DNA of 44,176 nucleotides from a virus (IMGVR_UViG_3300034073_004823:1-44176); one strand, 5' to 3'; positions 38-42,362 are shown, counted from the stretch's first letter. The notes: generated from the sequence alone by a model not told the origin. Translations and numbers: made by a program.

Positions 38-77
38 TCGTGAGCGTGAGCGGGTCGTGGTTGACTGCTCACGATCA
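38..77. repeat. Dispersed hairpin repeat, copy A
   Basis: The unit opens with TCGTGAGCGTGAGC and closes with GCTCACGATCA. CGTGAGC (45-51) pairs with GCTCACG (67-73) around a 15-base loop. The same ends, about 40 bases apart, recur at 1107, 3632 and 3709. A second inverted repeat (ATCATCC/GGATGAT) follows directly. Confidence 0.8.
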
Positions 78-139
78 TCCTGGATGATGGCAAGGGCGGC
101 CGGACCCCGATCTGCGTGTTGCGTTTCGCAACAAGCCGG

Positions 140-169
140 GTGCAAGCCTGCCCTGCCAGCTTGTATAAT
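140..169 (+). promoter_or_regulatory. Predicted promoter for the gene at 194
   Basis: A consensus -10 TATAAT lies at 164-169 with GTGCAA 18 bases upstream as a fair -35. It is followed by a leader (GAGGTCC...GGGCTAGACCC) that resembles the leader before the gene at 1262. Promoter activity is inferred from sequence only. Confidence 0.55.
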
Positions 170-193
170 TAAGAGGTCCACAGGGCTAGACCC

Positions 194-349
194 ATGACCC
201 ACCAACGGATCATCCGCGAGCAGCGCCGCCAATTCCAGAAGGCGTTTGCCGCATTTTATGCTGATTCATTTGAATACAGCGAGCAGCATCTGAACTTCTT
301 GCGTAGGCGCCATGAGGCTTATCTGCAGTCCCTCCGTCCTTCTGTTTGA
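194..349 (+). CDS. Small basic protein of unknown function
   Basis: A 51-residue protein starting MTHQRIIREQRR, rich in Arg and Gln and probably helical. The start is set by the promoter and leader directly upstream; the leader ends in GACCC next to the ATG and is shared with the 1262 gene. Its TGA stop lies just upstream of the ATG at 361, so the two are probably cotranscribed. No family recognised. Confidence 0.65.
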   Translation: MTHQRIIREQRRQFQKAFAAFYADSFEYSEQHLNFLRRRHEAYLQSLRPSV

Positions 350-360
350 ACCGTCCTCTC

Positions 361-756
361 ATGGCTAACTACATCGCCTCAGCACGAACAAACAAGTTCC
401 GCGTCAAGGACATCGCCGCCCTTGAAGCCGCTATGCCAGAAGGCATCGAGGTCTACATCGAGTCCTTTCCAGAAAACCTCGTCTGCCTTTTAGTCGACGA
501 TCCCGATGGGGGCGGATGGCCGTCTGCGATTTACGACGAAACCACCGACGATTGGATTGTCTGGGACGTGGAAAACGCTGTTGTCCCGCATCTACTTGAT
601 GGCGAGTGGTGCGTTACCATGGAAGTTGGCGCAGAGAAGCTCCGCTACTTAGTCGGCCACGCCCGAGCTTTCAATAACAAGGGTGAGTCGCATTACGTCA
701 ACCTCGACGACATCTTCAAGCTCCTCCCCAACGGCGTCTCTACCTGCGACTATTGA
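361..756 (+). CDS. Conserved phage protein of unknown function
   Basis: A 131-residue protein beginning MANYIASARTNKFRVKD. This opening (MANY..ART/S N.F.VKD) recalls a family of unknown function found in phages of several hosts, which favours the ATG at 361 over an upstream TTG at 346 that overlaps the previous stop. The body is acidic with several Trp (DDPDGGGW, DWIVWD), looks soluble and has no membrane segment. It is the middle gene of a short operon ending in the terminator at 1074. Confidence 0.75.
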   Translation: MANYIASARTNKFRVKDIAALEAAMPEGIEVYIESFPENLVCLLVDDPDGGGWPSAIYDETTDDWIVWDVENAVVPHLLDGEWCVTMEVGAEKLRYLVGHARAFNNKGESHYVNLDDIFKLLPNGVSTCDY

Positions 757-758
757 TC

Positions 759-1064
759 ATGACTGTCATTTACACCGCTTTTGTTGGATTCAATGGCCCC
801 CATTCAAGCCATTATAGCAATCGAGCTTTGCTGCTTGATCTGCTTGCCTGTAGCAATCTTGACGGCTACACTGTTGCATACGCTGATGGGGTTTACGAAG
901 GGCAGGCCGAGCCCAGCGCCGTGGTTACTGTCATTGGTAACACCGACGAGCAGGCCATGGACTATGGGGAGGCGATAATTGAGGTCTGCCGGCAATACAA
1001 GGAGCAGGCCGGTCAGTCCGAGGTTTGGATCACACGTCGCACCGAGGATCTGTATGTAGTTTGA
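759..1064 (+). CDS. Hypothetical protein
   Basis: A 101-residue soluble protein (MTVIYTAFVGFNG...) whose ATG lies 2 bases after the stop of the preceding gene. A TTG at 753 could extend it by two residues. The alternation of beta-like and acidic helical segments suggests a small alpha/beta fold. It ends just before a rho-independent terminator and so is the last gene of the first operon. No family recognised. Confidence 0.65.
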   Translation: MTVIYTAFVGFNGPHSSHYSNRALLLDLLACSNLDGYTVAYADGVYEGQAEPSAVVTVIGNTDEQAMDYGEAIIEVCRQYKEQAGQSEVWITRRTEDLYVV

Positions 1065-1073
1065 ATAGCCAAT

Positions 1074-1097
1074 GGGGCCCAAGTGGCCCCTTTTTTA
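1074..1097 (+). terminator. Rho-independent terminator
   Basis: The stem GGGGCC (1074-1079) / GGCCCC (1085-1090) has a 5-base loop and is followed by six T. It sits 9 bases after the stop of the 759-1064 gene and immediately before hairpin repeat B. Confidence 0.9.
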
Positions 1098-1106
1098 TGT
1101 TCAAAA

Positions 1107-1146
1107 TCGTGAGCGTGATTAAGGAAAGGCAGCTTAATCACGATCA
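1107..1146. repeat. Dispersed hairpin repeat, copy B
   Basis: TCGTGAG leads into a perfect 10-bp inverted repeat: CGTGATTAAG (1114-1123) and CTTAATCACG (1133-1142) with a 9-base loop. The outer ends match copies A, C and D, while the inner stem differs but stays paired. It directly follows a terminator, as copy C does. Confidence 0.85.
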
Positions 1147-1227
1147 GCCTGGCTGTGCAAGTGCAACCGGGGCCCGTTTTAGATCAGCATTACCAATGAA
1201 TCACGGCCGGGCGCAGGGTGTGGCTGG

Positions 1228-1261
1228 TGATACAATGAGGAGGTCCCATCGGGCAAGACCC
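1228..1261 (+). promoter_or_regulatory. Extended -10 promoter and shared leader
   Basis: TGATACAAT (1228-1236) is an extended -10 element without a clear -35. The following leader GAGGTCCCATCGGGCAAGACCC abuts the ATG at 1262 (written here to its 22 bases as GAGGTCC, CATCGGGC, AAGACCC with the joining C). GGTC and GACC within it can pair. It closely matches the leader of the 194 gene. Confidence 0.5.
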
Positions 1262-1867
1262 ATGAACATCACTCACGGCAACATTCTGGCGGTGTTCTTT
1301 TCTGCCAGCGCTGCTGAAGTTATCGAGGGCGAGGAATGGTATTCTCGCGCCAATCTAATCTGCCGCCAATTAGCGCATCAGTATGATTGCCAACTAGAGC
1401 ATGCCGCAGGTGTTATTGCTGCCCTGTCACCGAACAATCGGTGGGAGCGTAACGTGGCGGACGCGCAACGATTGTTCGCAGTCTATGAGAACTCAGACCT
1501 GAACATCAATGATGTTCGCGTCTGTACCTTCAATAAAAACAAGGAGAAGGCTATTCGCATCTTGGAAGGTGAGCATCCGTTGGATGTATTGAGCGGCAAC
1601 AAAGTCAGGGCTTTCTATGGTTGCATTGCCGGTTACAACGATGTATGCGTGGATGGGCACGCCTACGCTATTTGGGCAGGGCAGCACATCCCCACTACTA
1701 AGACACCTAAGATCAGCGATAAACTGTATGCCAGCATTGCTGAGGATTATCGCAGGGCAGCCCAACAGATCAATCAGATCACCGGCAAGTGCTACACTGG
1801 AGCTCAGGTGCAAGCTATCACCTGGGTTACATGGAGAAATCTGATCAACAATGGAGGTGATCAATGA
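1262..1867 (+). CDS. HhH-GPD-like (DUF7178-like) protein
   Basis: A 201-residue protein. The segment ALSPNNRWERN, then GNKVRAFYGCIAG and VCVDGHAYAIW, follows the order seen in HhH-GPD DNA glycosylases: a helix-hairpin-helix 'GxK..AF...I.G' and then a 'VD.H' carrying the catalytic Asp. It resembles the phage family DUF7178. If the likeness holds it may act on modified or damaged bases, but no activity is shown. The ATG at 1262 is chosen because the promoter and shared leader lie directly upstream; an upstream extension would cross them. The stop overlaps the next gene by ATGA. Confidence 0.75.
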   Translation: MNITHGNILAVFFSASAAEVIEGEEWYSRANLICRQLAHQYDCQLEHAAGVIAALSPNNRWERNVADAQRLFAVYENSDLNINDVRVCTFNKNKEKAIRILEGEHPLDVLSGNKVRAFYGCIAGYNDVCVDGHAYAIWAGQHIPTTKTPKISDKLYASIAEDYRRAAQQINQITGKCYTGAQVQAITWVTWRNLINNGGDQ

Positions 1868-2187
1868 GTCAAGAGCCGGGCAAATTGTGGTGGGTTTACG
1901 ATAGCGAAACGGGGTCATTTTCGACCCTGCCCACCGGGCCATTGTTAATACCAGCCCTGCTGGTCATGGCAATTGGAGCTTTATTTGGCTTCAATGAAAA
2001 CAAAAAAACATTCAGGGATGTCGCTGGCAACATTGCCAGAACACCAGAATGGCAGGCCAAAAATTATCGGTATCAGCAACTTGTTTCCAAATTCGTTGCC
2101 GTCAATGGCGACCTGGAATTAAGCGAATTGGCCGAGCTTGAGCGCCTGGAGTCCTACATGTGCAACCCTAGAGGTATCCGCCGATGA
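1864..2187 (+). CDS. Small membrane-anchored hypothetical protein
   Basis: A 107-residue protein with one hydrophobic stretch at about residues 26-42 (GPLLIPALLVMAIGALFG), flanked by a short N-terminal part and a helical charged C-terminal part. It is probably a single-pass inner-membrane protein. ATGA overlaps with both the preceding HhH-GPD-like gene and the next gene indicate translational coupling. No family recognised. Confidence 0.7.
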   Translation: MSQEPGKLWWVYDSETGSFSTLPTGPLLIPALLVMAIGALFGFNENKKTFRDVAGNIARTPEWQAKNYRYQQLVSKFVAVNGDLELSELAELERLESYMCNPRGIRR

Positions 2188-2396
2188 TCACACTACACTT
2201 TGAATCGGTTGAGCAGGCTGAGGATTATGCCAACGAATTAGAGATTGAATGCCGCGCATTGCGCCATGCATTAGACGGCAAGTTCTTCGAGGACGCTTAC
2301 ACCGAACGCATCATGCGCAAGGAATTGGAATCCAACGAAGAAAAGTTGGAGGAGCTTTATGTGCTGATCAATCAGGTCCGTTTCCCGCTCCTGTAA
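2184..2396 (+). CDS. Small acidic helical protein
   Basis: A 70-residue protein, Glu-rich and almost entirely helical (SVEQAEDYANELEIECRAL...), probably a coiled-coil dimer. It starts inside the preceding stop (ATGA) and ends before a hairpin and promoter at 2408-2440, so it closes the operon that begins at 1262. Function unknown. Confidence 0.65.
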   Translation: MITLHFESVEQAEDYANELEIECRALRHALDGKFFEDAYTERIMRKELESNEEKLEELYVLINQVRFPLL

Positions 2397-2407
2397 CGCT
2401 TTGCGAC

Positions 2408-2440
2408 AGGCCCGGAGACGGGCCGCCCATCGGCTACAAT
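2408..2440 (+). promoter_or_regulatory. Hairpin and predicted promoter
   Basis: GGCCCG/CGGGCC with a 4-base loop (2408-2423) is followed by a -10-like TACAAT at 2435-2440. The hairpin has no T-run, so it is a weak terminator at best. The downstream leader holds another inverted repeat (CCGGG/CCCGG) before the start at 2481. Confidence 0.4.
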
Positions 2441-2480
2441 TAGATCACCGGGGCGAACCCGGCCACCATCGGAGGATTCC

Positions 2481-2837
2481 ATGACCGTCAAGACCTATGA
2501 AGCCGGCTCCAGCATCGGTGACCGCATTCTGAAGGTGCAGGCCCTGAAGGCGCAGATCGATGCGCTGGAGCAGGAGCTGGACAGCCAAAAAGCTTACCTG
2601 CAGGGCCACGCCATCCGGCAGGGCCTGACCAGCCTGAAATGCGAGGCCACCACGCTGACCCTGAGGGAACGTCTGACCTGGTTCTACAGCCAGGGTGTGA
2701 AGGACGCCGAAAAGCGCCTGAAGGCCCGCAAGACCCGCGAGCAGGAAGATGGCACTGCCACCAGCACCGCCAATCAGCACCTGGTGGTGACAATCTCAGC
2801 CAAGGCCATTCTGGCCGCCCAAACCATCGGAGCTTGA
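2481..2837 (+). CDS. Coiled-coil hypothetical protein
   Basis: A 118-residue protein. Residues about 15-45 form a heptad-like helix (ILKVQALKAQIDALEQELDS), followed by a basic helix (KDAEKRLKARKTREQE) and a short hydrophobic tail. It probably oligomerises. A good Shine-Dalgarno (GGAGG) sits 6 bases before the ATG inside the repeated leader ACCATCGGAGGATTCC. The last codons (ACC ATC GGA GCT TGA) form part of the next copy of that leader. Function unknown. Confidence 0.7.
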   Translation: MTVKTYEAGSSIGDRILKVQALKAQIDALEQELDSQKAYLQGHAIRQGLTSLKCEATTLTLRERLTWFYSQGVKDAEKRLKARKTREQEDGTATSTANQHLVVTISAKAILAAQTIGA

Positions 2838-2845
2838 TTCCATGA
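2821..2845 (+). promoter_or_regulatory. Repeated translation-initiation leader
   Basis: AAACCATCGGAGCTTGATTC plus CATGA spans the end of the 2481 gene and the start of the 2842 gene. It is nearly identical to 3042-3066 and similar to the leaders at 2465, 1241 and 175. GGAG provides the ribosome binding site. Confidence 0.55.
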
Positions 2846-3033
2846 ACAAAAAAGAACTTATGCTCGCTATCGAGTCTGGGCTTCAAAGACTATGGGAGCT
2901 GTCCCCTCATTCCGTAGATCACTACAACTCAATAGTTTACGGCAAAAATGACAGGCTTCTCCCCTCTCGCTGCACCGAAAGGATCCTCAAGCAAATCGAG
3001 GACGACGTGATGCAGTTCATTCAAAACTCTTGA
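2842..3033 (+). CDS. Small hypothetical protein
   Basis: A 63-residue, mostly helical protein (MNKKELMLAIESGLQRLWEL...). Its start is set by the repeated GGAG-containing leader, 4 bases after the previous stop. No motif or family was recognised; the position suggests cotranscription with its neighbours at 2481 and 3063. Confidence 0.6.
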   Translation: MNKKELMLAIESGLQRLWELSPHSVDHYNSIVYGKNDRLLPSRCTERILKQIEDDVMQFIQNS

Positions 3034-3041
3034 AATCACAA

Positions 3042-3066
3042 AAACCATCGGAGCTTGATCCCATGA
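3042..3066 (+). promoter_or_regulatory. Repeated translation-initiation leader
   Basis: AAACCATCGGAGCTTGATCC plus CATGA is identical to 2821-2845 at 24 of 25 positions although it lies outside any coding region, so the identity is not due to protein conservation. It supplies GGAG for the ATG at 3063. Confidence 0.55.
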
Positions 3067-3416
3067 CCACTGTAACTGTTACTATTGACTGCACCCTGCC
3101 TGCCGAGGAATACGAGGGTATTCTTGATACTGCCGGCTACGTTATCAGCTATTGGGCCTGCCAGGCATCAATTGAACCCAAGGCTGAGAATAGCGACGAA
3201 GTGATCTACAGGGTCACGGAGGATGAAACGGGCACTGAATACGTGCTCGACAAGTCTAAAGTTGAGCGGGCCATTGCCAAAATTATCATGGATAGACAGT
3301 GGGCATCTGACCCGCTTAAAAATGCCATCCTGGATCAAGAGTATGGCGAAATCGATGGCGACCTCGCCGACATAATCATTCAAACCGCATGCTTCGGGGA
3401 GGTAGTTTATGGCTGA
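3063..3416 (+). CDS. Hypothetical acidic protein
   Basis: A 117-residue acidic protein (MTTVTVTIDCTLPAEEYEG...). The N-terminal third looks beta-rich and the rest alpha. The ATG at 3063 is preferred over an earlier in-frame codon at 3030 because the leader at 3042 places GGAG correctly. It overlaps the next gene by 8 bases. No family recognised. Confidence 0.65.
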   Translation: MTTVTVTIDCTLPAEEYEGILDTAGYVISYWACQASIEPKAENSDEVIYRVTEDETGTEYVLDKSKVERAIAKIIMDRQWASDPLKNAILDQEYGEIDGDLADIIIQTACFGEVVYG

Positions 3417-3585
3417 CATTCACCACGCAATCAGTATTGTCGAAGGCATTGAATCTGCCAGTGTCGAAGAACAACTAGCGGCATGGCAATCGCTGGTTGA
3501 TACAGGCCTGGTGTGGCAGCTTCAGGGCTGGTATGGCCGAACCGCAGATCAATTGATACGGGAGGGCCTGATTTACGAGCGTTGA
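3409..3585 (+). CDS. Conserved small phage protein
   Basis: A 58-residue protein (MADIHHAISIVEG...). Its core AWQSLVDTGLVWQLQGWYGR followed by TADQLIREGLI matches a small uncharacterised phage/bacterial family with the pattern W..L.DTG..W.LQG.(F/Y)GR.A..LI..G.I. GAGG at about 10 bases before the ATG is the probable ribosome binding site. It is the last gene before the terminator at 3597. Function unknown in the whole family as far as I know. Confidence 0.8.
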   Translation: MADIHHAISIVEGIESASVEEQLAAWQSLVDTGLVWQLQGWYGRTADQLIREGLIYER

Positions 3586-3596
3586 ATACATCAACA

Positions 3597-3624
3597 GGGG
3601 GCAAATTAGCCCCCATTTTTATTG
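3597..3624 (+). terminator. Rho-independent terminator
   Basis: GGGGGC (3597-3602) and GCCCCC (3609-3614) enclose AAATTA and are followed by ATTTTTATTG. It closes the plus-strand operon and is followed within 8 bases by hairpin repeat C. Confidence 0.9.
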
Positions 3625-3631
3625 TTAAAAA

Positions 3632-3672
3632 TCGTGACCGTGAGAAACCGCGCAGCGGCATTGCTCACGATC
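3632..3672. repeat. Dispersed hairpin repeat, copy C
   Basis: It begins TCGTGACCGTGAG and ends CTCACGATC. CGTGAG (3639-3644) pairs with CTCACG (3664-3669) with a 19-base loop. The unit length is the same 40-41 bases as the other copies. Confidence 0.8.
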
Positions 3673-3708
3673 GCGCTAGCCGGGGCACCCGAGCCAGATC
3701 CGGGATTT

Positions 3709-3749
3709 TCGTGAGCGTGAATGGCTGCCAGGGGCGTTAATCACGATCA
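3709..3749. repeat. Dispersed hairpin repeat, copy D
   Basis: It begins TCGTGAGCGTGA and ends TCACGATCA, with CGTGA (3716-3720) facing TCACG (3741-3745). Copy D lies 36 bases after copy C in the same gene-free stretch, forming a pair. Confidence 0.8.
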
Positions 3750-10032: not shown

Positions 10033-10375
10033 CGGTTGAGACATAGAAGGGATGAATGCGAATGAACTCACTGGCGGTTACGGTGACGACCCCGTGGGGC
10101 CCTTTGGAACGCGCCAGTACCATCAGAGCGTAGACCGGATCGATGCGGTCGTCAAGCCTTCTAAAGGACCGATCTGCGGCCTGTGGTAGTCGATTCCAGT
10201 CCAGAGTCGCCTGGGCAGCTCCGACACGTGCCCAGGGCCGCCACGGCCAATCTCGCTTGGCTGAACGAATATCAATCCAGCGCTGACGGCGACAAGCGAC
10301 CTGGTTCTGCTGGTGTACCAGGTACGCCTGACAGGCGGTGACAATATCTTGAGCGGGGAAAACGGCGGAACTCAC
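10025..10375 (-). CDS. Hypothetical basic protein
   Basis: A 116-residue protein starting from GTG (MSSAVFPAQDIVTACQAYLV...). The central part is rich in Arg and Trp (CRRQRWIDIRSAKRDWPWRP), suggesting nucleic-acid contact. It overlaps the following gene. No domain recognised, and confidence in the exact start is low. Confidence 0.55.
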   Translation of the reverse strand: MSSAVFPAQDIVTACQAYLVHQQNQVACRRQRWIDIRSAKRDWPWRPWARVGAAQATLDWNRLPQAADRSFRRLDDRIDPVYALMVLARSKGPHGVVTVTASEFIRIHPFYVSTDG

Positions 10376-10416
10376 AGGCTGCTACGGGTGGCCCCCCAAA
10401 AGGGGACAATCTTCCC

Positions 10417-10581
10417 TTAGGGTAGCGACCACTGTTCCTCCAGCACAACGGCAGAAATACGGACCGTTGGCCAGAGTTCTTTGCAGGTCCAATAGGCCTG
10501 GGTTGGGTTTGGAGCAACAATGTGGCGAACAACGGCCTGGTCATCCAGGGTGCCGCGCACCACGTAGCAATAGGTGGACAT
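10417..10581 (-). CDS. Small hypothetical protein
   Basis: A 54-residue protein, MSTYCYVVRGTLDDQAVVRH and on to VVLEEQWSLP. It looks like a small alpha/beta fold (beta start, helix TQAYWTCKELW, beta end). A canonical promoter (TTGACC, 17 bases, TACGAT) lies upstream, which fixes the ATG at 10581 as the start. Function unknown. Confidence 0.65.
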   Translation of the reverse strand: MSTYCYVVRGTLDDQAVVRHIVAPNPTQAYWTCKELWPTVRISAVVLEEQWSLP

Positions 10582-24160: not shown

Positions 24161-27139
24161 TCAGCCTTGACACGCCAGGCACTCAGCATAGTCGCCTTCG
24201 CCAGAATCCGCAACCCCCATCCCCAAATGCTGCTCCAGGCCCTGGTACCCCCCTGGAATGTGCTGGCCATTCAGCCAGATCTGGGGCACGGTGTCCCACT
24301 TCCATTCGTCATCCGCAAACAGCGAACGGTCTTGCTCTTGGATCACGTAGCCGTGGCTTGCCAGCAACTCCTTCGCCTTGACGCACCACGGGCACCCAGA
24401 CTTGGTGACCACCAACGCAGTCTTTGCGGGGGCGCTGGCACGTGATGCTGATCCTTGCTGTTTGGCGTGCAGTGACGAGGACTTCAGGTAATACAGCCCC
24501 AGGCAGCCATTTTTCCATGCCGCCAAATGCAGGCGCATCAGGTACTCGGCAGAGGCTTCCGGGTCCACAAACAGATTCAACGACTGGCCCTGGTCGATGA
24601 ATTGTTGGCGATCTGCGGCTTGTTTGACAAGCTCAAATTGATCAATCTCGCGAGCCGTCTTAAAGACTTCCCTCGCCGTATCACTCAGGCACTCCAGGTG
24701 CTGGACGCTGCCACGCCGCTCCAGGATCGAGTCCCACACTTCCTGGGTGTTCTGGCCGATGGCTTCCAGGTGGGCCTCCAGATACGGATTGCGGCGCACG
24801 AAGGTGCCCTTGGCGTTGCCGGCAACAAACAGGTTCGCCACCAGGGGCTCGATGCCCTCGGAGACCGCCCCACAGATCACACTGTTGGTCTTGGTGGGCG
24901 CAATGGCCGTGCGGGTTGTATGGCGAACACCATTACCCTCACACCACTCTGGCTCGCCGTACTCGCGGGCCATGTCCTGGGAGGCCTGCAAGGCAAGCTT
25001 TTCGATGTTCTTATGGACCTCGATGTTCAGTTCGCGAGCAGCCTTGGACGCAAACGGCAGCCCACGGGACTGATACAGCGCATGCAGGCCCATAGTCCCC
25101 ATTCCCAGGGCGCGTGACTTGCGGGCAAAACGCACGGAGCGACCCATTGACGGCAGGCGCTCTGCCTTATGGATGAACTCTTCGACAACTGCATCCAGGA
25201 AGTACACGCACAACTCGGGAACAGTCTTGCCGGTCCGAGCGCCCTTCCAGCCCTTCCACTCGTCGTACTTCGCCAGATTCAGCGAAGACAGGACGCAAAC
25301 AAAAGTATGGTTTTCATCCGTCGGCAGGAAGATTTCAGAACAGTTATGGACTAGAAGGCCCGAGCAGAAATCCTTTTCCTCTTTGGTAATGATGAAGAAA
25401 TTGTGGTTATCTTCAACTGTTAGGTCGTAAACTTCTTCGACACCTACTGAGCGTACGCTAACAACCTTGAGGCCGGTCTTACGGAGCCGCTTTACCCGCT
25501 CTTTCAAGGCATTCTTTTCTACGAGCCGAGGGTTGATTGGCAGCTCTTTCTCAATTTCACACTCGCCCTGGTACTCTTTTTCGCCCTTTACATAAGCAAC
25601 ATAATCCTTAAAGCTTTCGTTGAAACGATATTTCGAGAAATGCTGGGGGACATTATAGCCCTCGTCGAGCAGACTCAAGTAATCCGCCTTCGTGAAGGTT
25701 CCGCGACGTTCATACACTGTGCGCCCAAGCGCAATCAACTGATAGTTGTCAATACCATTGAAGCGGCCGTTCTTCTTGCCACTGCTGGTCGCTGAGGTGA
25801 TATTGGCGCGAAACACCTTGTCAACCTTATGAATAGGATTATTGGCGCCCATGCGCTCGGCGGCAGTCTTAGCAAAATGCTTTTCCTTGGTCAGCAACTG
25901 CAGGTTTTCAATCGAGTCGTCGTCTCCCGACTGAATGTGATCAACATGAAAGCCTGCGCTGCTACGCCCGTTGTAATACTCCCAAATCATGCGGGCTTGA
26001 CGACGATGACCATCGCAATGGGTGTTAGTCATTAAATGACCAAACTCATTACGGAAGGAGGTAAATGGCTCAATCGTGCAGCCAACCGAGTCGGCGGCTT
26101 CCACCCATTTCACATCACGGGTCGCAAGAAGGTGATCAGGAGTACAGCGGAACGTGCTGCCGTCATCAAGTTCAACCTCAACAACCTCGCGAGTTCCGGT
26201 CTTGAACGCTTTTGCTGGCTTAATTTCGGTCACCCATCTGTCATGGGTTTTTGATTTGCGAGCAGAATACACTGGAAATTCCGTGCCTTCCAGATCAGCA
26301 ATTGCCACCGAGTTGCGGCCATCGGCAACTGCAACCAGAGTGTCGCCCGTAAAACAGAGATTGGATGTTGAAATCTTCAGGTTGCGCTGCTTGAAGCAAT
26401 CAGGAGCCTGGTTATTTGCGTTATCAATGTAGACAATGTACGGCGATCCAGTCATCATCCGGCACTTCAGCACTTCGCCGAAGATGGCCTGCTTGTCCTT
26501 GTCGCCAGCCAACATGGATTCAATCCATTCATCGGTAACAGTTACCGCCAGGTTGCTGTCGATGAAGTTGCGCGGGTCGCCCTGCGTGTGGTCTTTACAG
26601 CGCAGCGCCTCCATTAAATCAGGGTGGTCAATCGGCAGATACAGCGCGAAGGACCCGCGACGGGTGTTGCCCTGGGAGACGACACTTGCTGCCAGGTCGT
26701 ACTGACGCATCCAGGGAACCACTCCGGTCGACTTGCCACCACTGGCAATAGGAGCTCCGCTAGGGCGAATGTCACCAAAGTAGATACCAACACCGCCACC
26801 GTTCTTACTCAGGGCAGCAACCTCCTTTAGGTGGCTGTAAATACTGGAGACGGAGTCTGAAGAATGGACGCTATAGCATGAGATAGCGAGTCCACGGTTG
26901 GTCCCAAAGTTGCTCAGAACGGGTGTTGCACCTCCCAGGTAGCCACGCCAAAACATCTCCAGGATGTCATCACCAATGCCATCGATCTTGAGGTGCTTTT
27001 CTGCGGTAGACGCGCAGCGCTTCCACATATCACGAGGCGTCTCACCGGGCAGCAGGTAGCCCTTACCCAGAACCTGTTGGGCTTCTTCGGTCAGCCACTC
27101 GGGATGGGTGGGCAGGTTATTGGGATCGAAGGCAGTCAT
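24161..27139 (-). CDS. nrdA: Class I ribonucleotide reductase large subunit with intein and glutaredoxin domain
   Basis: 992 residues before splicing; numbering here counts an extra TTG-coded residue upstream as 1. The barrel holds C89 (ISCYSV, redox Cys), N261-L262 joined by splicing to C601-S-E603 (active-site Cys and Glu), C616 (redox partner) and Y884-Y885 (radical path). There is no ATP cone at the N-terminus. Residues 263-600 are an intein, and 906-973 a glutaredoxin domain with CPWC (917-920). The C-terminal tail ECLACQG carries the shuttle Cys pair. The enzyme reduces ribonucleotides to deoxyribonucleotides with NrdB. Its start overlaps the nrdB stop (TGATG). Confidence 0.93.
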   Translation of the reverse strand: MTAFDPNNLPTHPEWLTEEAQQVLGKGYLLPGETPRDMWKRCASTAEKHLKIDGIGDDILEMFWRGYLGGATPVLSNFGTNRGLAISCYSVHSSDSVSSIYSHLKEVAALSKNGGGVGIYFGDIRPSGAPIASGGKSTGVVPWMRQYDLAASVVSQGNTRRGSFALYLPIDHPDLMEALRCKDHTQGDPRNFIDSNLAVTVTDEWIESMLAGDKDKQAIFGEVLKCRMMTGSPYIVYIDNANNQAPDCFKQRNLKISTSNLCFTGDTLVAVADGRNSVAIADLEGTEFPVYSARKSKTHDRWVTEIKPAKAFKTGTREVVEVELDDGSTFRCTPDHLLATRDVKWVEAADSVGCTIEPFTSFRNEFGHLMTNTHCDGHRRQARMIWEYYNGRSSAGFHVDHIQSGDDDSIENLQLLTKEKHFAKTAAERMGANNPIHKVDKVFRANITSATSSGKKNGRFNGIDNYQLIALGRTVYERRGTFTKADYLSLLDEGYNVPQHFSKYRFNESFKDYVAYVKGEKEYQGECEIEKELPINPRLVEKNALKERVKRLRKTGLKVVSVRSVGVEEVYDLTVEDNHNFFIITKEEKDFCSGLLVHNCSEIFLPTDENHTFVCVLSSLNLAKYDEWKGWKGARTGKTVPELCVYFLDAVVEEFIHKAERLPSMGRSVRFARKSRALGMGTMGLHALYQSRGLPFASKAARELNIEVHKNIEKLALQASQDMAREYGEPEWCEGNGVRHTTRTAIAPTKTNSVICGAVSEGIEPLVANLFVAGNAKGTFVRRNPYLEAHLEAIGQNTQEVWDSILERRGSVQHLECLSDTAREVFKTAREIDQFELVKQAADRQQFIDQGQSLNLFVDPEASAEYLMRLHLAAWKNGCLGLYYLKSSSLHAKQQGSASRASAPAKTALVVTKSGCPWCVKAKELLASHGYVIQEQDRSLFADDEWKWDTVPQIWLNGQHIPGGYQGLEQHLGMGVADSGEGDYAECLACQG
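25343..26356 (-). mobile_element. Intein with HNH homing endonuclease in nrdA
   Basis: 338 residues. It starts CFTGDTLVAVADG (Cys1, block A), has GTREVVEVELDDGSTFRCTP and DHLL (block B, T..H), an HNH-type endonuclease (FHVDHIQ...SIENLQLLTKEKH), block F-like VYDLTVEDNHNFF, and ends LLVHN before Cys+1. All residues for self-splicing are present. Cys+1 is the catalytic Cys of NrdA, so the reductase cannot work until the intein leaves. The HNH would spread the element into intein-free nrdA genes. Confidence 0.93.
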
Positions 27140-28146
27140 CAAACGAGCTCCAGGGTCAGAGTGGACAGGTCAACGGCTTCGTAGTTCTGGGTGGGCTTGG
27201 CGACATAGTTATCACCGGCCTTGGCACGAGCAAAGAAATCATGACTGACTTGTCCTTTCGCCATCGGCTCAAACCAATCAGCCACACGACGAGCCAGAAT
27301 AGCTTCTTGACTGGTCATTTCGATACGGTATTCCAGCCCCAGATTCTTCAGGCGATCATTGGCGCGGTATTTAATGTACGCTTTAACTTCATCAAGTTCA
27401 ATTGGTAAAGCGCCGGCTTGCGGGCTGACGAAGATGTTCTCCAGGAAGGAAAATTCATTCTCTATTATTACCTGAAAGCCTGCGTAAATGTCAGCTAGCT
27501 CAATATTGTTGATCCCAACTTCCGCAACCAGATCACGGAACAATTGAGAGCCGCCATCGCTATGTTGGCCTTCATCTAAGATGGACCATGAAATAATTTG
27601 CTGCAGTCCCTTAAAGCGTCCGTCCTTGCAAAATGCCAGTAAGATGGCAAATGACCCGAAAAGCGACACCCCTTCTGCGCAACCACTAAACACTGCCAGG
27701 CTAACTTTTTCTGAGCTACATTCGGTGAAGAACCGCTCAACTTTTTGCTTGGCGATTGGATCTGAGATGAACTCCTCGAACTCATTCAACCCCAGCGTAT
27801 CGCTGAGATAATTATAGGCTTGTGCATGAATCTGCTCAAAAGCGCTGAACATCCGCGCCATTGCATGCACTTCTGGCTTGGGGAAAATGCGCGTCACGAC
27901 GTCACCCCAGTAGCATCCGATTCCCAGTTCCGCCGAGGTGAAGCCCCGCAGCACACCGGCAATTAAGTCCCGTTCGGCCTGGGTAGTGTTGTGCTGCCAG
28001 TCGCGCAAATCAGACTCCAAAGCAACCTCCTCGGGCCGCCAAATTGACGCTACAGCACGCCTGTAGAAGTCGAAATACAGAGGGTAGTCAAACCCATGGT
28101 CAAATTTATATACCATGTGTGGATGCTGAAGCAACGAACGCGCCAT
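27139..28146 (-). CDS. nrdB: Class I ribonucleotide reductase small subunit
   Basis: A 335-residue ferritin-like radical protein. Metal ligands by alignment to E. coli NrdB: E73 (in FTSAE, where E. coli has Asp84), E104 and H107 (FEQIH), E158 (CAEGV), E192 and H195 (DEGQH). The radical Tyr is Y111 (AQAYNYL). It therefore looks like an active, tyrosyl-radical type subunit with Glu instead of the first Asp. It generates the radical that NrdA uses. Stop and start of nrdB/nrdA overlap, so the subunits are coupled. Confidence 0.93.
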   Translation of the reverse strand: MARSLLQHPHMVYKFDHGFDYPLYFDFYRRAVASIWRPEEVALESDLRDWQHNTTQAERDLIAGVLRGFTSAELGIGCYWGDVVTRIFPKPEVHAMARMFSAFEQIHAQAYNYLSDTLGLNEFEEFISDPIAKQKVERFFTECSSEKVSLAVFSGCAEGVSLFGSFAILLAFCKDGRFKGLQQIISWSILDEGQHSDGGSQLFRDLVAEVGINNIELADIYAGFQVIIENEFSFLENIFVSPQAGALPIELDEVKAYIKYRANDRLKNLGLEYRIEMTSQEAILARRVADWFEPMAKGQVSHDFFARAKAGDNYVAKPTQNYEAVDLSTLTLELV

Positions 28147-30874: not shown

Positions 30875-31510
30875 CACTCCCAGGTGCTCTTCCAAATCCT
30901 TGGCGATCACGGGTGGTACATCAATGGACCGACTAAGGGCGTAGCGCTCCAGGCGTTTTCTGAAGGAGTCTGGCAGCCGAGAAATGGTCTCCGAGGCCTC
31001 TTCGCGGAACTGGGTCAGGTGGTCAACTTCATCGGGCTCCAGGCCGTCAATAGGCTTGGCCTGGTCTTTCAGCTCCAGAGGTGGCCCCGAGCAGGCCGAT
31101 TTGGTATCCTGCCACTCGCCCAAAGAGATCCCTAATTCATTGGCGATTTCAATGTCACTGAATCCCAGGTTTAACTTCTTGCGACCTTTGACCCACAGTT
31201 CACGCATCCGGTGCGTCAGGCGCATCGAGTAGGTCCGATCGCGAATGTAGTGCAAAATACTGCCACGGATGTATGGCACCGCCAGCGAAGAGAACTTCAA
31301 GGACTTACCGGTTTCCTTGTGGAGCACGCCAGCATCATATTTTGCTGCAGCCTGGCATAGGCCCTCAAAGGCCGCTGACTCCAAGATCGAGTACTCAATA
31401 CTAGTGGAACGATGATACTTCCAGGCGATGTTCCTGGCCAAGTTCAGATTGGCCGCAGCCAGCACCTGCTGATCAGGTGTTAACTTCAGTTCCAGATTTC
31501 TTTTCGCCAC
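30869..31510 (-). CDS. Sigma-70-family protein lacking a clear region 4
   Basis: A 213-residue protein. Region 2 is clear: LTPDQQVLAAANLNLARNIA, ESAAFEGLCQAAAKYD, FSSLAVPYIRGSILHYIRDR (DNA melting and -10 binding). A region-3-like segment (RMRELWVKGRKKLNLGFSDI, EIANELGIS) follows. After residue 150 there is no convincing helix-turn-helix of region 4, so -35 recognition may be absent or degenerate. The 'IRG.I.HYIRD' form is closest to group 3 / SigF-like sigmas. It would steer RNA polymerase to extended -10 promoters. It directly follows TerL; stop and start overlap by one base. Confidence 0.8.
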   Translation of the reverse strand: MAKRNLELKLTPDQQVLAAANLNLARNIAWKYHRSTSIEYSILESAAFEGLCQAAAKYDAGVLHKETGKSLKFSSLAVPYIRGSILHYIRDRTYSMRLTHRMRELWVKGRKKLNLGFSDIEIANELGISLGEWQDTKSACSGPPLELKDQAKPIDGLEPDEVDHLTQFREEASETISRLPDSFRKRLERYALSRSIDVPPVIAKDLEEHLGVC

Positions 31511-33036
31511 TAGAATCCACCTAAGGTACTGGGTTGTCCCGGCAGGAACGCAGAACGTCCCCAGTGTACTTCAGTTAACTGCGCAATGGATCGTTGATTC
31601 AGATAATTAATACACTGAGCAACGCTGTCGCAAATGTCATCATTTTTGGCCGCCGGAAACAGACTGAATTCATTGATAAAGGTATCCAGCCAGGGCTCAT
31701 ATTTAGGCAGGAACACATTACCGGCTTCAACAACGGGCACGATACCCGCCAATCTGGCCTGTTTTGAGCGATCACCAGGCTTATAGCCAATTAAGCCAGG
31801 AACTTTACTGCTAAGGGTCTGATAGACTGCATGGCCGTTGGCTGCAAGTTCAATGATGATGCCATCCAGTTGGTGTTTGTTTCGCATCCTTAGCATCATT
31901 GCAATCGTACCGCCAATATCTAGCTTGTCCCGCGCCATGTCCAGCACATAGTACGAACTACCATGCTGGCCAATCACCGTGCCGACAACATAGTCAGAAC
32001 TGGCACTGGCCGTAAAGGCACAGTCCACACTCAGCATCACCCGATCCATGGTTGGCAGCTCCTTGGGTGACTCATAGAACTGCCACCAGTTCGGGTTGAA
32101 CATATTACCGCTTTCTGGTGCAGGACGCTGCTGATACAGCGCTGCCCATTCCCTGGGGCCAACGATCTGACGGATCCTTTCCAGATCGTCAATATCGTAA
32201 CGTTGGGGACACAGCGCAACCCCCGGCTCCTCACGCCAATCAGGAATCACCTCGCAGTTATCTGGATATGGCGGCCTGGAATTCGGATCTTCGCTGATGG
32301 CCGGCAGATCAATGATCGTCCAGTTTTCACGCTTGTCGGGTGGTGAGTTGGCCTCTAGTTCCAACAGACGGCCCGTCAGGTCGGCTTCACCCCACCTGGT
32401 GGCGACAACCACGATGGCGCTGTGGCCAGGCTCCAGACGGGTGTATAGCGAGCCCTGGTAGAAGCTCCACAGTTTTTCCATCGTCTTGGGGCTGTCGGCC
32501 TCTTCGCGGCCCTTGACTGTATCGTCAGCAATAATCAGGTTGGCTGATCGACCAGTCACTGAACCGCCGATACCTGTTGCCCAGCAACCGCCACCGCCGG
32601 CTGTACCCCAGTTATTCACTGAGGTGTTCGTCGGATCCAGCATCCCGCCTGCAGCCTTGTAGTATTCGCGGGCCTCCCTGGAGAATGTCTCAGCCAGTTC
32701 TGCGCTATAGGAACAGATTGCGACGTAGCGATCTGGGTGGGCCAGTAAATAAGCGGCCGGTAACAAGCGGGATGATAGCTCACTTTTGCCCAATCTGGGA
32801 CTCGTCGAGACAATCAATCTGGTGCATTCGCCATCGATGACCTTTTGGAATTGCTTGACCATGGTGGCGTGAGCACGAAAAAACTTGTAGTTCGGCTTCA
32901 CTTGCTTGATCATCTTATGGAAGATGACCTGCTCACCCTGGGACTGAGCTTTTGTCTTGGCACGCCGCAGTTCCTTGACCAGATCGGCCTGGGCAGCAAC
33001 GTGATTCAGGTAGCGATCACCAACTGACTTTGGCAT
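31510..33036 (-). CDS. Terminase large subunit
   Basis: A 508-residue packaging motor. ATPase: Walker A STSPRLGKSE (77-86), Walker B LIIADD (167-172) and coupling motif VVVATRW (about 209-215). Nuclease: SVDCAF (336-341) with D348, and later Asp residues (NDDICDS near 470) for an RNase H-like site. It translocates DNA into the procapsid and cuts concatemers. The length is typical for TerL. It follows TerS with one small gene between, and its start overlaps the 33036 gene by one base. Confidence 0.95.
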   Translation of the reverse strand: MPKSVGDRYLNHVAAQADLVKELRRAKTKAQSQGEQVIFHKMIKQVKPNYKFFRAHATMVKQFQKVIDGECTRLIVSTSPRLGKSELSSRLLPAAYLLAHPDRYVAICSYSAELAETFSREAREYYKAAGGMLDPTNTSVNNWGTAGGGGCWATGIGGSVTGRSANLIIADDTVKGREEADSPKTMEKLWSFYQGSLYTRLEPGHSAIVVVATRWGEADLTGRLLELEANSPPDKRENWTIIDLPAISEDPNSRPPYPDNCEVIPDWREEPGVALCPQRYDIDDLERIRQIVGPREWAALYQQRPAPESGNMFNPNWWQFYESPKELPTMDRVMLSVDCAFTASASSDYVVGTVIGQHGSSYYVLDMARDKLDIGGTIAMMLRMRNKHQLDGIIIELAANGHAVYQTLSSKVPGLIGYKPGDRSKQARLAGIVPVVEAGNVFLPKYEPWLDTFINEFSLFPAAKNDDICDSVAQCINYLNQRSIAQLTEVHWGRSAFLPGQPSTLGGF

Positions 33037-35832: not shown

Positions 35833-36044
35833 TTCCAGTTCTCCAAAATTTTTGCAAGTACCCAAAAGAATCCGGCGGTCAGCAGCAATGTTAGCACAAT
35901 TGCTAGGGGGATCCAGAAAGGCGATAGCACCCACACCCAGGGCCACTGGATGTATCCGGTTAACTTTAGCCCAACAAATAGTACGCCCAGCAGGCTAGAG
36001 GTGCTCAGGCCGGAACCAACTTGGACTTGATTGGGATTACTCAT
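35829..36044 (-). CDS. Two-helix phage membrane protein
   Basis: A 71-residue protein. After a polar start (MSNPNQVQVGSG), SSLLGVLFVGLKLTGYI QWPWVW and VLSPFWIPLAIVLTLL are two membrane segments. 'LLGVLF..LKLTG.I.W.W.WVLSP.WI' is the common 'transmembrane Fragile-X-F' phage protein; its function is unknown. Its stop overlaps the thyX start (GTGA), and its start overlaps the RecE-like gene. Confidence 0.8.
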   Translation of the reverse strand: MSNPNQVQVGSGLSTSSLLGVLFVGLKLTGYIQWPWVWVLSPFWIPLAIVLTLLLTAGFFWVLAKILENWK

Positions 36045-36919
36045 GCTGTTACCTCAAAGGCGTCGTCCAGGTCATTACTGGCATCCAGTGTATCATACTT
36101 GATGGGCGAATTGTACCACGGCGGCAGCTCCAAGACTTCATGTTCAATCGGCGGTGCCGCCCAGCTCTTGGTGCGCAGACAGTCAACCAACAAGCGGCGA
36201 GCAGTGCGGGTCTGTTCCATGCCCTCGGCGATCATGTCGTCAGACACGTAGAACACCTTGGTCTGGTAAGGTGGCTGCCGCTCAACTCCAATAAAGACGA
36301 AGATGGCCGGCACCTTGAATGCGGCCTGGGCGGCTTCCGCGTACCACGCAGCCTGGAACATGTAATTCAGACCCCCAATGACCTTTTTTAAGAAGTCCTT
36401 AGAATCAACGCTGTCGGTGGTCTTCAGGTCCAACACTAGCGCCCGGTCATCCTCGAACACCAGGCGATCCAGGCGTGCCTTGCAGTCCAGTCCTTGGGCG
36501 GTCCAATACAGGCTGAGCTCGTTGAACTTACGATAATCGGTCTGGTCTGGATCGAACCACTTCAGGCGCCGCAGTGACTCGGCCATGCCATGAACACAGT
36601 CCCAAGAGGCATACTGGTCAGACTTGGAAAGGATTGTCTTCTTGCCGGCGGCGGCCTTCCAGTCTTTCCCCTCTTTTGTCGTTAATGACAGTCCTTCGGG
36701 TTTCAGAATAAAGTCCCGGTCAAACTGCTCCTGGCCCTCAAGCACCAAACAATGCAGGGCTGAACCGATCTGCATCGTCAGACTGGGTGCAAACTTGCGC
36801 TGCTTGGCCGCCAGGTAGTGCTGGGGGCTTTTCAAAATATGCTTCACATAACTTTGGGCGTGGCCGGGATCTGCCCTATAGGACGGATCTGCCTGCTCAT
36901 AGCTGATTGCTGTTGGCAC
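36041..36919 (-). CDS. RecE/DUF3799-like PD-(D/E)XK exonuclease
   Basis: About 292 residues. AQSYVKHILKSPQHYLAAKQ then IGSALHCLVLEG is the opening of exonuclease VIII (RecE C-terminal)/DUF3799 proteins. The catalytic set is CKARLDRL (D of the D...), ALVLDLKTTDS (D-x-K) and YMFQAAWYAEA (Q-x3-Y). It should degrade one strand of dsDNA to give 3' ends for the annealing protein at 41706. GTG 36919 is preferred since the extended -10 at 36944 leaves no leader for GTG 36943. Confidence 0.85.
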   Translation of the reverse strand: MPTAISYEQADPSYRADPGHAQSYVKHILKSPQHYLAAKQRKFAPSLTMQIGSALHCLVLEGQEQFDRDFILKPEGLSLTTKEGKDWKAAAGKKTILSKSDQYASWDCVHGMAESLRRLKWFDPDQTDYRKFNELSLYWTAQGLDCKARLDRLVFEDDRALVLDLKTTDSVDSKDFLKKVIGGLNYMFQAAWYAEAAQAAFKVPAIFVFIGVERQPPYQTKVFYVSDDMIAEGMEQTRTARRLLVDCLRTKSWAAPPIEHEVLELPPWYNSPIKYDTLDASNDLDDAFEVTA

Positions 36920-36943
36920 TGGGGATTCCGATGCAGTCCCCAC

Positions 36944-36952
36944 AGTATATCA
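36944..36952 (-). promoter_or_regulatory. Extended -10 overlapping the RusA-like stop codon
   Basis: The minus strand reads TGATATACT; TGA is the stop codon of the RusA-like gene. It precedes the RecE-like gene. This is the fourth case of an extended -10 built on a stop codon. Confidence 0.55.
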
Positions 36953-37339
36953 CAACTTGGCGATTTGGATGACCCAGCGCGACTCGGCCTTAGGGGCCTT
37001 GTGCCATTCGGACAGCAAAACGGGGATCACCGAGACTCGGTCGTCTTTCCAAATCAAGTCATTACCGCAGTCCAAGGCCGCCCCTGCGCCGTTATCCGCG
37101 TCCAAACGACCTTCTCCGTACATAATTACACGAACCCCAATAGGTCCCTGCAAGGGCTCCTCAGGCCACTGTAGGCGCATTTGCCGCCGCATCTCAGCCT
37201 GGGAATCCTTATAGGCTTGTGGCATGAATACGTGTCCCGACCTGGTCATCCTGGGGCGAGCCTTCGAGAATAGCGGCATCCGTATTTCAATCACGTAATC
37301 AGGTGAACCGATAACACGATAAACTGCAGAAGTGGTCAT
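36950..37339 (-). CDS. RusA-like Holliday junction resolvase
   Basis: A 129-residue protein. PLFSKARPRMTRSG, GPIGVRVIMYG, then RLDADNGAGAALDCGN and LIWKDDRVS carry the acidic residues (D-x-D...D...DD) of the RusA active site, which cuts four-way junctions with Mg2+. It resolves recombination intermediates or debranches DNA before packaging. ATG 37339 lies just after the HNH gene's stop, with GAGGAGG upstream as ribosome binding site inside that gene. Length matches RusA (about 120). Confidence 0.88.
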   Translation of the reverse strand: MTTSAVYRVIGSPDYVIEIRMPLFSKARPRMTRSGHVFMPQAYKDSQAEMRRQMRLQWPEEPLQGPIGVRVIMYGEGRLDADNGAGAALDCGNDLIWKDDRVSVIPVLLSEWHKAPKAESRWVIQIAKL

Positions 37340-37344
37340 CACAA

Positions 37345-38235
37345 CTACGTCCTCCTCAAGCGTCCAACGTTGAAACCTTCTGGACATTCGGGGGCTAGCA
37401 ATTCGACCACTCCGTTGTTGTACCAATGCTTGCCCCAGCAATGAGATTTCTCTCCTGTCCGCCCATCGCTAAGTTTTTTCTTTGTCTCTGAGGACAGCAC
37501 TTTTCCTTTGTGGGCTTGGCTTATTTTTTTTCGCGCTTCTTCGGTGACTTTTCTCCCAAATACTGGAGAGTCCGGCCCTTTTTTGCCGTACTGGTGATTC
37601 CTTTCTCCAGCCATCAAGACGCTAAGTTTTTCTCTTTGGGATTCCGACATCTTGAAACCTTTCTTGGATGCACTTACTTTCTTGCCAAGTGAGCCAGGCC
37701 TGCCAGGCACAAAGCCTTCTGGACAGATTTCGCTTTTAATCGAAATTTCTCCGTTGTGGAACCAGTGCTTACCTCGTTTCCCGTCTCCCATTCGTTTTCT
37801 TGCTTCAGCAGAGTGCTTTTTTCCTGTTAAGCCTTCTGATATTTTTCTCCTTGACTCAAGCGAATGCTTTTTACCGTAATTCCTATTGTTTTTGCCTTTC
37901 ATTAATTCGCTCTGAAGAGCGCAATTTTCCCGCTTAATTTGCTCGTAAAGCCTTGAATTTATGCACCTCTTTTCCTGGTTAAAATTCGCATTACCTAAAA
38001 GAATTACTGCTGCAAGCATTTTTATAGTTTTCTTGTCTTTACGCCCATACCTATTCTTGAAAGCGCGATACAAGAGTACATGTGCAACATAATGCTCCCT
38101 TGGAGTCAAGGCTACAATTCTTTTGTTTGGTCCGTAAATAGATATCGGAAAGACATGGTGCCGCTCTTTTAATTTTGGCGGCCTACGTTTTTCGGCTTTT
38201 TTGACCAAAAAGATGTAGTGTTTTAAGTAGTTCAA
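37345..38235 (-). CDS. Free-standing HNH homing endonuclease with NUMOD repeats
   Basis: A 296-residue basic protein. RHHVFPISIYGPNKRIVALT and PREHYVAHVLLYRA form the HNH-type nuclease. Then come NUMOD3-type repeats (KHSLESRRKISEGLTGKKHS, AEARKRMG) and two copies of KHW.(H/N)NG....(S/A)PECPEGF..GR. These bind the DNA target. The gene is distinctly more AT-rich than its neighbours, a sign of recent arrival, and lies directly before the RusA-like gene, whose ribosome binding site it supplies. Confidence 0.9.
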   Translation of the reverse strand: MNYLKHYIFLVKKAEKRRPPKLKERHHVFPISIYGPNKRIVALTPREHYVAHVLLYRAFKNRYGRKDKKTIKMLAAVILLGNANFNQEKRCINSRLYEQIKRENCALQSELMKGKNNRNYGKKHSLESRRKISEGLTGKKHSAEARKRMGDGKRGKHWFHNGEISIKSEICPEGFVPGRPGSLGKKVSASKKGFKMSESQREKLSVLMAGERNHQYGKKGPDSPVFGRKVTEEARKKISQAHKGKVLSSETKKKLSDGRTGEKSHCWGKHWYNNGVVELLAPECPEGFNVGRLRRT

Positions 38236-40320: not shown

Positions 40321-40746
40321 TCAGAAAGGGATTTCCTGGTTGCTGTAGCCACGACCGCCACCACGGGAAGAGGTGGAGCGACCACCACCAGAACGGGCAG
40401 TTGGTACAGCACCACCACCATCGTCGCGACGTGGCTCTTGATGAGTCACACGTGCGTTTTTAATGGTCGGGTAGATCTTGTCTTGGTACTGACGAAGCAC
40501 CAACTGGCCATGGATGCCGACGCGGTCGCCGCGTTGCAGGCGATCAGCGTAGATCTCGGCGGACTTGCCATACAGTTCCACTGAGTAGAACTGACCGGGA
40601 CGATCCTGGCCTTCAGGGACGCTGAAGTACTCCAGATCGACAACAGAAAAATTGGCTACCTGATTACCGTTATCAAACGTTTTCAGGTTGACAGGAGCGG
40701 TCCCTTCCTTGCAGGTGACCTTCCCAACAATTGAAATTGAAGCCAT
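40321..40746 (-). CDS. ssb: Single-stranded DNA-binding protein
   Basis: A 141-residue OB-fold protein. VGKVTCKEGTAPVNLKTFDN, FYSVELYGKSAEIYADRLQR and GDRVGIHGQLVLRQY are SSB core strands. A Gly/Arg/Ser-rich linker and the tip QEIPF (variant of DDDIPF) follow; the tip recruits partner proteins. It coats ssDNA during replication and recombination. It has its own extended -10 promoter at 40777 and a terminator, so it can be expressed independently and highly. Confidence 0.93.
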   Translation of the reverse strand: MASISIVGKVTCKEGTAPVNLKTFDNGNQVANFSVVDLEYFSVPEGQDRPGQFYSVELYGKSAEIYADRLQRGDRVGIHGQLVLRQYQDKIYPTIKNARVTHQEPRRDDGGGAVPTARSGGGRSTSSRGGGRGYSNQEIPF

Positions 40747-41705: not shown

Positions 41706-42362
41706 TCACCACTGCTTCGCGTCGTCCTTTGGGTCTGGCTGGGGCTCACAGGTCGCGTTGAACTCACGCACCCAGGCAGCATCCTTTTCGGCCAGGCGAT
41801 CCAGCCCACCAGCGTAGTTGCCCTTCAGTTTGGCCGCCAGAGCCTCAGCAGCATGCGTGGTCAACCCCTTTTCAAGTGCAGCCTCCAGGAACTGCTCCTT
41901 GGTGCCTTGCGGACCTGCAGGGGCAGACTGCGGGGCAGGGTCGCTGGGGCCAGCGTAGCCGCTTTCAAGCTCCTGCTTGGCCCAGAGTTCATAGGCCAGG
42001 CCAAAGGTCATCGCTGCGGCCAGACAGGCGCCACGGCGATGAGTGTCGGTCACGTCGCGAGCGGTGATCTTCTCATAGGGGATCGCCGAGTTTTTATGGT
42101 CCATGATCGCCTGAGGAACCTCGGGCGTCACTGCCCCGTCTGCATGACAGAAACGGATCAACAGGTAGCCACCAACCGGAGCGCGATGAACAAGTGAACC
42201 GTCGGCGGCGGGAACCGTCTCAACGCACCAGCCAGGAGCGTGCTGACGAAGTAGATGAAGCGTCCGGCTCCAGTTGATAAATGAGGCACTGAACCGACCG
42301 GTGCCGATTGTTTCAACCAGGTCCTGGGTAGCAACGCCAGCCAGATTGGGAATGCTTGCCAT
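41706..42362 (-). CDS. DUF1071/Sak-like single-strand annealing protein
   Basis: A 218-residue protein. FINWSRTLHLLRQHAPGWCV, GGYLLIRF, and ITARDVTDTHRRGACLAAAM with TFGLAYELW match DUF1071 (Sak-type) annealing proteins of phages. It should anneal complementary ssDNA with the RecE-like exonuclease and SSB. The C-terminus (about 140-218) is a helical UBA-like module (KEQFLEAALEKGLTTHAAEA). ATG 42362 (MASIPNL) is preferred; the earlier in-frame part is the repeat-bearing leader. Confidence 0.82.
   Translation of the reverse strand: MASIPNLAGVATQDLVETIGTGRFSASFINWSRTLHLLRQHAPGWCVETVPAADGSLVHRAPVGGYLLIRFCHADGAVTPEVPQAIMDHKNSAIPYEKITARDVTDTHRRGACLAAAMTFGLAYELWAKQELESGYAGPSDPAPQSAPAGPQGTKEQFLEAALEKGLTTHAAEALAAKLKGNYAGGLDRLAEKDAAWVREFNATCEPQPDPKDDAKQW

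Follow-up and report, generated by a model that had tools for sequence, protein, structure and literature searches.

In one clade of Synechococcus siphoviruses, the short hairpin elements described here very probably mark where gene cassettes begin and end, and on balance we favour a fuller explanation in which these cassettes are exchangeable and are joined, most likely, by the phages' own annealing recombination. Four copies lie near the start of the virus record IMGVR_UViG_3300034073_004823, a linear sequence of 44,176 bases that was analysed in its entirety (henceforth the window), and no further copy is found in that record. Its terminase is 58–60% and its primase 44–48% identical to those of the Synechococcus siphoviruses S-CRES1, S-CRES2, S-CRES3 and S-CBS2. 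The genomes of these relatives measure ∼ 71–74 kb and the window is therefore a fragment, derived from an S-CBS2/S-CRES-like siphovirus of this photosynthetic host genus. The sequence opens within a gene whose complete relative in the record G003 (contigs L034/L106) is preceded by nine more elements; the four hairpins of the window are the cut-off edge of a longer array, and element 1 is the last member of a cassette array whose remainder lies beyond the window start.

The elements and their distribution

In its general form the element is a near-palindrome of 36–38 nucleotides (nt), GATCGTGA-N-CGG-YCC-nnn-GGYC-(A)ATTG-N-TCACGATC, whose arms can be extended at either end (CGTGAS-CGTGA, or GTGATCGCGA); the window form, with one arm extended, is a special case. 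The four window copies, all on the plus strand and running from TCG to ATC, occupy positions 38–76, 1107–1145, 3632–3672 and 3709–3748 and are 39, 39, 41 and 40 nt long. An earlier note, made from the sequence alone, had reported copies with fixed ends starting at 38, 1107, 3632 and 3709, in agreement with these exact positions; the length that it gave as fixed at 40–41 is nearly constant but actually ranges from 39 to 41 nt. It had also described a repeat family with dyad symmetry lying between genes, and the elements are indeed strictly intergenic, in the relatives as well as here. The 12-base head TCGTGASCGTGA, with at most one mismatch, occurs four times in the window against 0.38 expected, a count reached in none of 100 shuffled sequences. 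A covariance model built from the four copies proved significant and recovered dozens of new copies in relatives, those of each genome being confined to one gene-rich stretch, and it gave no match with E < 0.9 elsewhere in the window or outside the arrays of relatives. The only Rfam matches at or above the gathering score in the window are two tRNAs, and the elements match no Rfam family.

Scanning of viral contigs with the exact pattern returned several multi-copy records, and the relatives were reached by protein searches. The array records carry 4–15 elements each (15 in G002, 11 in G003 and in G005, nine in G004, seven in G001 and in G011 and four in G012), with seven in G013, or nine if two further variants are counted. 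They are confined to one block of small genes per genome and the other parts of the genomes are free of them. Among cultured phages, S-CRES1 and S-CRES2 have two elements each, flanking gp61 and gp62; there are none in the genomes of S-CRES3 and S-CBS2. Where an element-bearing record includes core genes, its terminase, portal, capsid and replication genes place it in this clade. Most of the single matches in the first viral scan resemble chance matches in coding frames, and 84,980 species genomes of bacteria and archaea, when scanned, yielded 102 scattered matches, mostly coding-like and with no canonical core among those that were read, so that no bacterial reservoir was seen. Palindromes with GATCGTGA/TCACGATC ends and good stems, e.g. 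GATCGTGAATGG...CCATTCACGATC, are present on the Acidobacteria contigs L129, L134, L130 and L139, two of them on one contig. A blastn search with the window start found no match among named phages, and a literature search outside subscription journals found no paper on S-CRES1 or on such elements. S-CRES1 (L222) also contains clusters of TTGTCCACTAAA/TGGACA repeats at 31500–31650 and 3228–3360, possibly replication or repressor sites.

As single strands, the elements fold into an outer stem and a short inner stem-loop, often with a bulge on the 3' side. The paired change of the stems, on which the earlier note had laid weight, applies to one of two classes: in the terminator-side class, which includes copies 2–4 of the window, stem positions 6–10 are paired in 83 of 100 cells (62.5 ± 3.3 after shuffling), whereas the commoner array class shows no covariation (265 versus 263.5). 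One pair of the array class is invariably G.T (70/70), which suggests that an asymmetry is conserved and not stem pairing in itself. The polarity of the elements is constant along an array and relative to the common backbone genes, regardless of which way the genes run; the backbones of G003 and G012, and those of G002 and G011, align the same way once the arrays are oriented by the element. An apparent inversion of the interiors of two L034 elements was rejected, as these merely have their long and short arms on opposite sides.

Cassette arrays and the place of each element

Eight phage records contain arrays in which almost all gaps between small genes are occupied by exactly one element, and this applies to tandem, convergent and divergent gaps alike. 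The arm of the element can complete the neighbouring gene: the stop codon TGA consists of a T followed by the GA of the arm in 31 of the 90 called genes, in both gene directions (automatic gene calls are wrong-stranded in some cassettes, e.g. for the KSTK gene of G003 and G013, so that strand counts are approximate and claims of inversion rest on homology). The distance from the element to the start codon is not fixed, the leaders measuring 22–79 nt in most cases. No function is known for any of the ten cassette proteins examined; one of them has a match in Kyano_Gp96, a family from a different group of cyanophages, and some cassette genes are thus common to unrelated cyanophages. The gene in question is found at 1486–1899 of G011 (L224) and has a relative in G005 (L115), and the family was named from T4-like cyanophages.

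The interior of an element follows its place in the array, not the gene. Adjacent elements have far more similar interiors than expected by chance (a combined result of 0 in 5000 permutations), and the interiors are identical in 15 of 64 adjacent pairs compared with 10 of 260 non-adjacent ones. The mean difference is 2.3 edits between the two elements around a cassette, 6.3 between elements in equivalent positions beside homologous cassettes of other arrays, and 8.3 between elements of different arrays at large. Unrelated genes standing between identical elements look as if insertion had doubled the resident element.

Comparison of relatives revealed changes in both the order and the direction of cassettes at the elements. 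G003 and G012 share three cassettes that are 90–93% identical and differently ordered, with a neighbouring backbone that is 79% identical; these cassettes begin and stop at elements with two exceptions, one that overruns its element by ∼ 40 nt and one that reaches the contig end. The same pair provides a single and a filled site with common outer flanks, KSTK-element-AYAV in G003 and KSTK-element-AIRS-element-MIWL-element-AYAV in G012. The KSTK family appears in nine arrays at varying positions, duplicated in G001 and inverted in G011, and two multigene blocks stand in exchanged order in G005 and G013. Five families are found in opposite directions at element borders, with further inverted relatives in G005/G011, G005/G004, G002/G004 and G004/G013. 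Every changed junction that was examined retains one intact element. Several other contigs also stop close to an element, as would be expected if an element has varying neighbours in one population, but an assembly can also be interrupted by repeats alone.

A likely mechanism and its alternatives

From these comparisons we infer that the elements are places of exchange. A cassette is usually one small gene that has its own ribosome-binding leader behind one element and a stop codon joined directly to the following element, and the comparisons show cassettes gained, lost, reordered and inverted, the breaks lying at the elements. During co-infection the short shared near-palindrome would most likely be used by an exonuclease, a Rad52-like annealing protein, a single-strand DNA-binding protein (SSB) and RusA, and the hairpin may help by opening up or breaking the DNA there. 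The resident element would end up on both sides of an incoming gene, and the palindromic arms restore the TGA stop in either gene orientation.

Candidates for this machinery are encoded by the window, all on the minus strand, and by all carriers that are complete enough. They are the Rad52-like single-strand annealing protein (41706–42446; 57% identity to an S-CRES1 protein that bears the annotation Rad52 recombinase, with a weak match to phrog_3290, single strand annealing protein), an Exonuclease VIII/Cas4-like exonuclease (36041–36943; phrog_412), a RusA-like Holliday junction resolvase (36950–37441; phrog_140) and the SSB (40321–40746; phrog_44). Phage recombinases of the Rad52-like type are known to unite homologous stretches that are short and diverged (PMC3945230). 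At 42428–42503, just upstream of or inside the start of the Rad52-like gene, stand two tandem copies of 38 nt with 82% identity.

Several points weigh against this explanation. Homology blocks end within 5 nt of an element in 26 of the 66 unique cases (9.6% expected, from the share of such positions), and this statistic is partly built in because mutually similar elements halt local alignments and because selection allows breaks between genes in any mosaic phage; the retained elements at changed junctions are the stronger evidence. The gene at window positions 361–756, between elements 1 and 2, is replaced by an unrelated one in the closest relative (G003, 10342–10557) with no element at the joint, and exchange therefore also occurs without elements. 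The data are mostly metagenome contigs, in which 36-nt repeats could have caused some misjoins, and both the exchange and the enzymes behind it are deduced from sequence. Finally, plain homologous recombination needs neither the invariant G.T nor a fixed polarity. As it leaves the invariant asymmetry unexplained, a dedicated enzyme may be at work; we regard as tentative, and rather doubtful, a separate cassette system of cyanophages, unrelated to integrons, in which the polar 36-nt hairpin is cut or recombined by a dedicated, unrecognised phage or host enzyme that duplicates the site at each insertion and supplies a stop codon.

The earlier note had proposed an operator, an RNase III-type processing site or an insulator. 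In its broader form this reading assigns the elements a role in regulation or at the RNA level, whether as an insulator, as a stoperator-like repressor site, as an ESAS-like translation element or as a hairpin that RNase III recognises or that stabilises mRNA, and it explains the gene changes by ordinary gene-border mosaicism. Strong RNA folds with an asymmetric 3' bulge fit such a role, as does the single polarity, which recalls stoperators and SAS sites; the terminator-side class has both covariation and adjoining terminators, and in 55 of 77 elements the strand with the G.U pairs has the greater stability, partly through the way in which polarity was set. Yet the elements occupy all types of gap, and their polarity does not change between convergent and divergent gaps or next to genes that are inverted; they lie at no fixed distance from start codons (mostly 22 to 79 nt), they make stop codons, their interiors follow the array neighbours and not the gene, and cassettes change order and direction at them. 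We therefore consider it unlikely that regulation is their main role, while a side role at the transcript level is possible.

An enzyme of their own is suggested by identical interiors around unrelated genes, which resemble target duplication, by gene ends that are flush with the arms, and by the combination of palindromic ends, a free interior, an invariant asymmetry and a fixed polarity, which recalls strand-selective sites such as attC. It could be a single-strand recombinase resembling that of integrons, or a nuclease nicking both outer ends, after which repair would leave a copy of the 36-nt element on either side of an insert. The searches offer no candidate: serine recombinases of the resolvase/invertase type (PF00239) and Y1 transposases (PF01797; the control was positive in five genomes) were found in none of the 13 records, and a tyrosine recombinase (PF00589) was absent from 12 of the 13, the single match being in G006, although the records are fragments and clusters of attC sites without an integrase (CALINs) lack it by definition. 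The attC boxes RYYYAAC ... GTTRRRY were found at none of 77 elements (and in one of 600 control stretches), and no gene was shown to track the distribution of the element. A dedicated enzyme of either kind thus appears quite improbable, and the phages' annealing recombination remains the agent that we prefer.

It is highly improbable that a small selfish repeat of the REP/MITE type has merely spread into gene gaps with no part in gene movement: the element is a short, dispersed, intergenic palindrome with families of near-identical copies, but it forms one block per genome with one copy per gap instead of being scattered, it has no partner transposase, the matches in the genome collection are scattered and, among those read, without the canonical core, and the stop codons of genes merge with its arms.

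Genes around the elements in the window

The plus-strand gene that is cut by the window start (1–34) ends in TEWYY and a stop codon just before element 1; it is complete in G003 and has a relative in G002. Element 1 (38–76) has an extended left arm and a right arm of the GATC type. It is followed by three small plus-strand genes, of 51 codons (194–349; 98% identical in G003), 131 codons (361–756, the gene whose place is taken by an unrelated one in G003) and 101 codons (759–1064; phrog_16022, function unknown). Element 2 (1107–1145), with the stem GTGATTAAG/CTTAATCAC, has a counterpart at 11244–11281 of L106.

A multigene block separates elements 2 and 3. Its first gene (1265–1867, plus strand) belongs to phrog_3842, a family of unknown function that is widespread in phages, and the remainder (1864–3585, plus strand) comprises seven small genes, two of which have relatives in separate element-bounded blocks of G005 and G013. 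Element 3 (3632–3672) is followed by element 4 (3709–3748) after 36 nt. Elements 2 and 3 stand directly behind intrinsic terminators (1074–1090 and 3597–3614, plus strand), as the earlier note had stated; the elements themselves are not intrinsic terminators, being followed by ATC or STCA with no T run, and these two terminators are separate structures just upstream.

The leaders of the genes that follow elements 1 and 2 (160–196 and 1230–1265) have in common a TATAATT or GATACAATG box and share a GAGGTCC...AGACCCATG start region. Elsewhere in the window, the ribonucleotide reductase large subunit (24161–27142, minus strand) is interrupted at residues ∼ 369–450 by a segment that matches HNH endonucleases and probably represents an intein.

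Relation to known systems and significance

CALINs have been reported in phages (PMC9892861). The arrays described here resemble them and integron cassette arrays in having rows of small, mostly same-direction genes and short imperfect palindromes with conserved ends, a variable middle and one polarity; the unit is again a gene plus its border, no integrase stands beside the array, and exchangeable single-gene cassettes with one site per gap are found here too. In contrast to the longer attC sites, the cyanophage elements are 36–41 nt long, have GATCGTGA/TCACGATC ends and lack RYYYAAC/GTTRRRY boxes; they are limited to one cyanophage clade and their interiors are homogenised within each array. 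Since none of the 77 elements has attC boxes, we do not file the arrays under integrons or CALINs although they work alike.

With the SAS/ESAS sequences the elements share short inverted repeats with a variable spacer, a location in the small-gene half of siphovirus genomes and a mostly uniform orientation. The ESAS of Cluster K mycobacteriophages is paired with an AGGAG-bearing 13-bp site located 3–7 bp ahead of start codons, and its occurrence goes with the gene family (PMC3203893), whereas the cyanophage element touches the stop codon, keeps no fixed distance from the start and has an interior that follows the array, and so differs from what defines SAS/ESAS. Stoperators of Cluster A mycobacteriophages, which are 13-bp asymmetric repressor sites (PMC9283540, PMC6550527), likewise occur in many intergenic copies of a single polarity; the cyanophage elements are, instead of such 13-bp sites, near-palindromes of 36–41 nt that border shuffled genes, in phages mostly without an integrase.

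REP sequences, which are associated with RAYT transposases, resemble the cyanophage elements in being small hairpins between genes and in having additional conserved bases at the 5' foot; the cyanophage elements have no Y1 transposase, show no genome-wide dispersal and are tied to gene ends. REP/RAYT, serine inversion sites, attC sites and terminators were each tried as the identity of the element and rejected. The boundary sequences of the lambda nin region are gene-border exchange sites, and the cyanophage arrays likewise combine short common border sequences as exchange places with phage annealing proteins. Such gene-border homology and Rad52-like recombination underlie phage mosaicism (PMC3945230); the arrays differ from it in having one recognisable, structured and polar repeat at nearly every gap, and in inversion and reordering that go beyond replacement in place.

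How tailed phages trade small accessory genes without damage to the genome is a long-standing question, to which the usual answer is random breaks followed by selection. Here, a single border element marks the joints, relatives display the states before and after, and cultured phages carry copies, so that exchange becomes directly testable. The stretches between elements would also be a simple place to look for cyanophage accessory genes, almost none of which has a known function.

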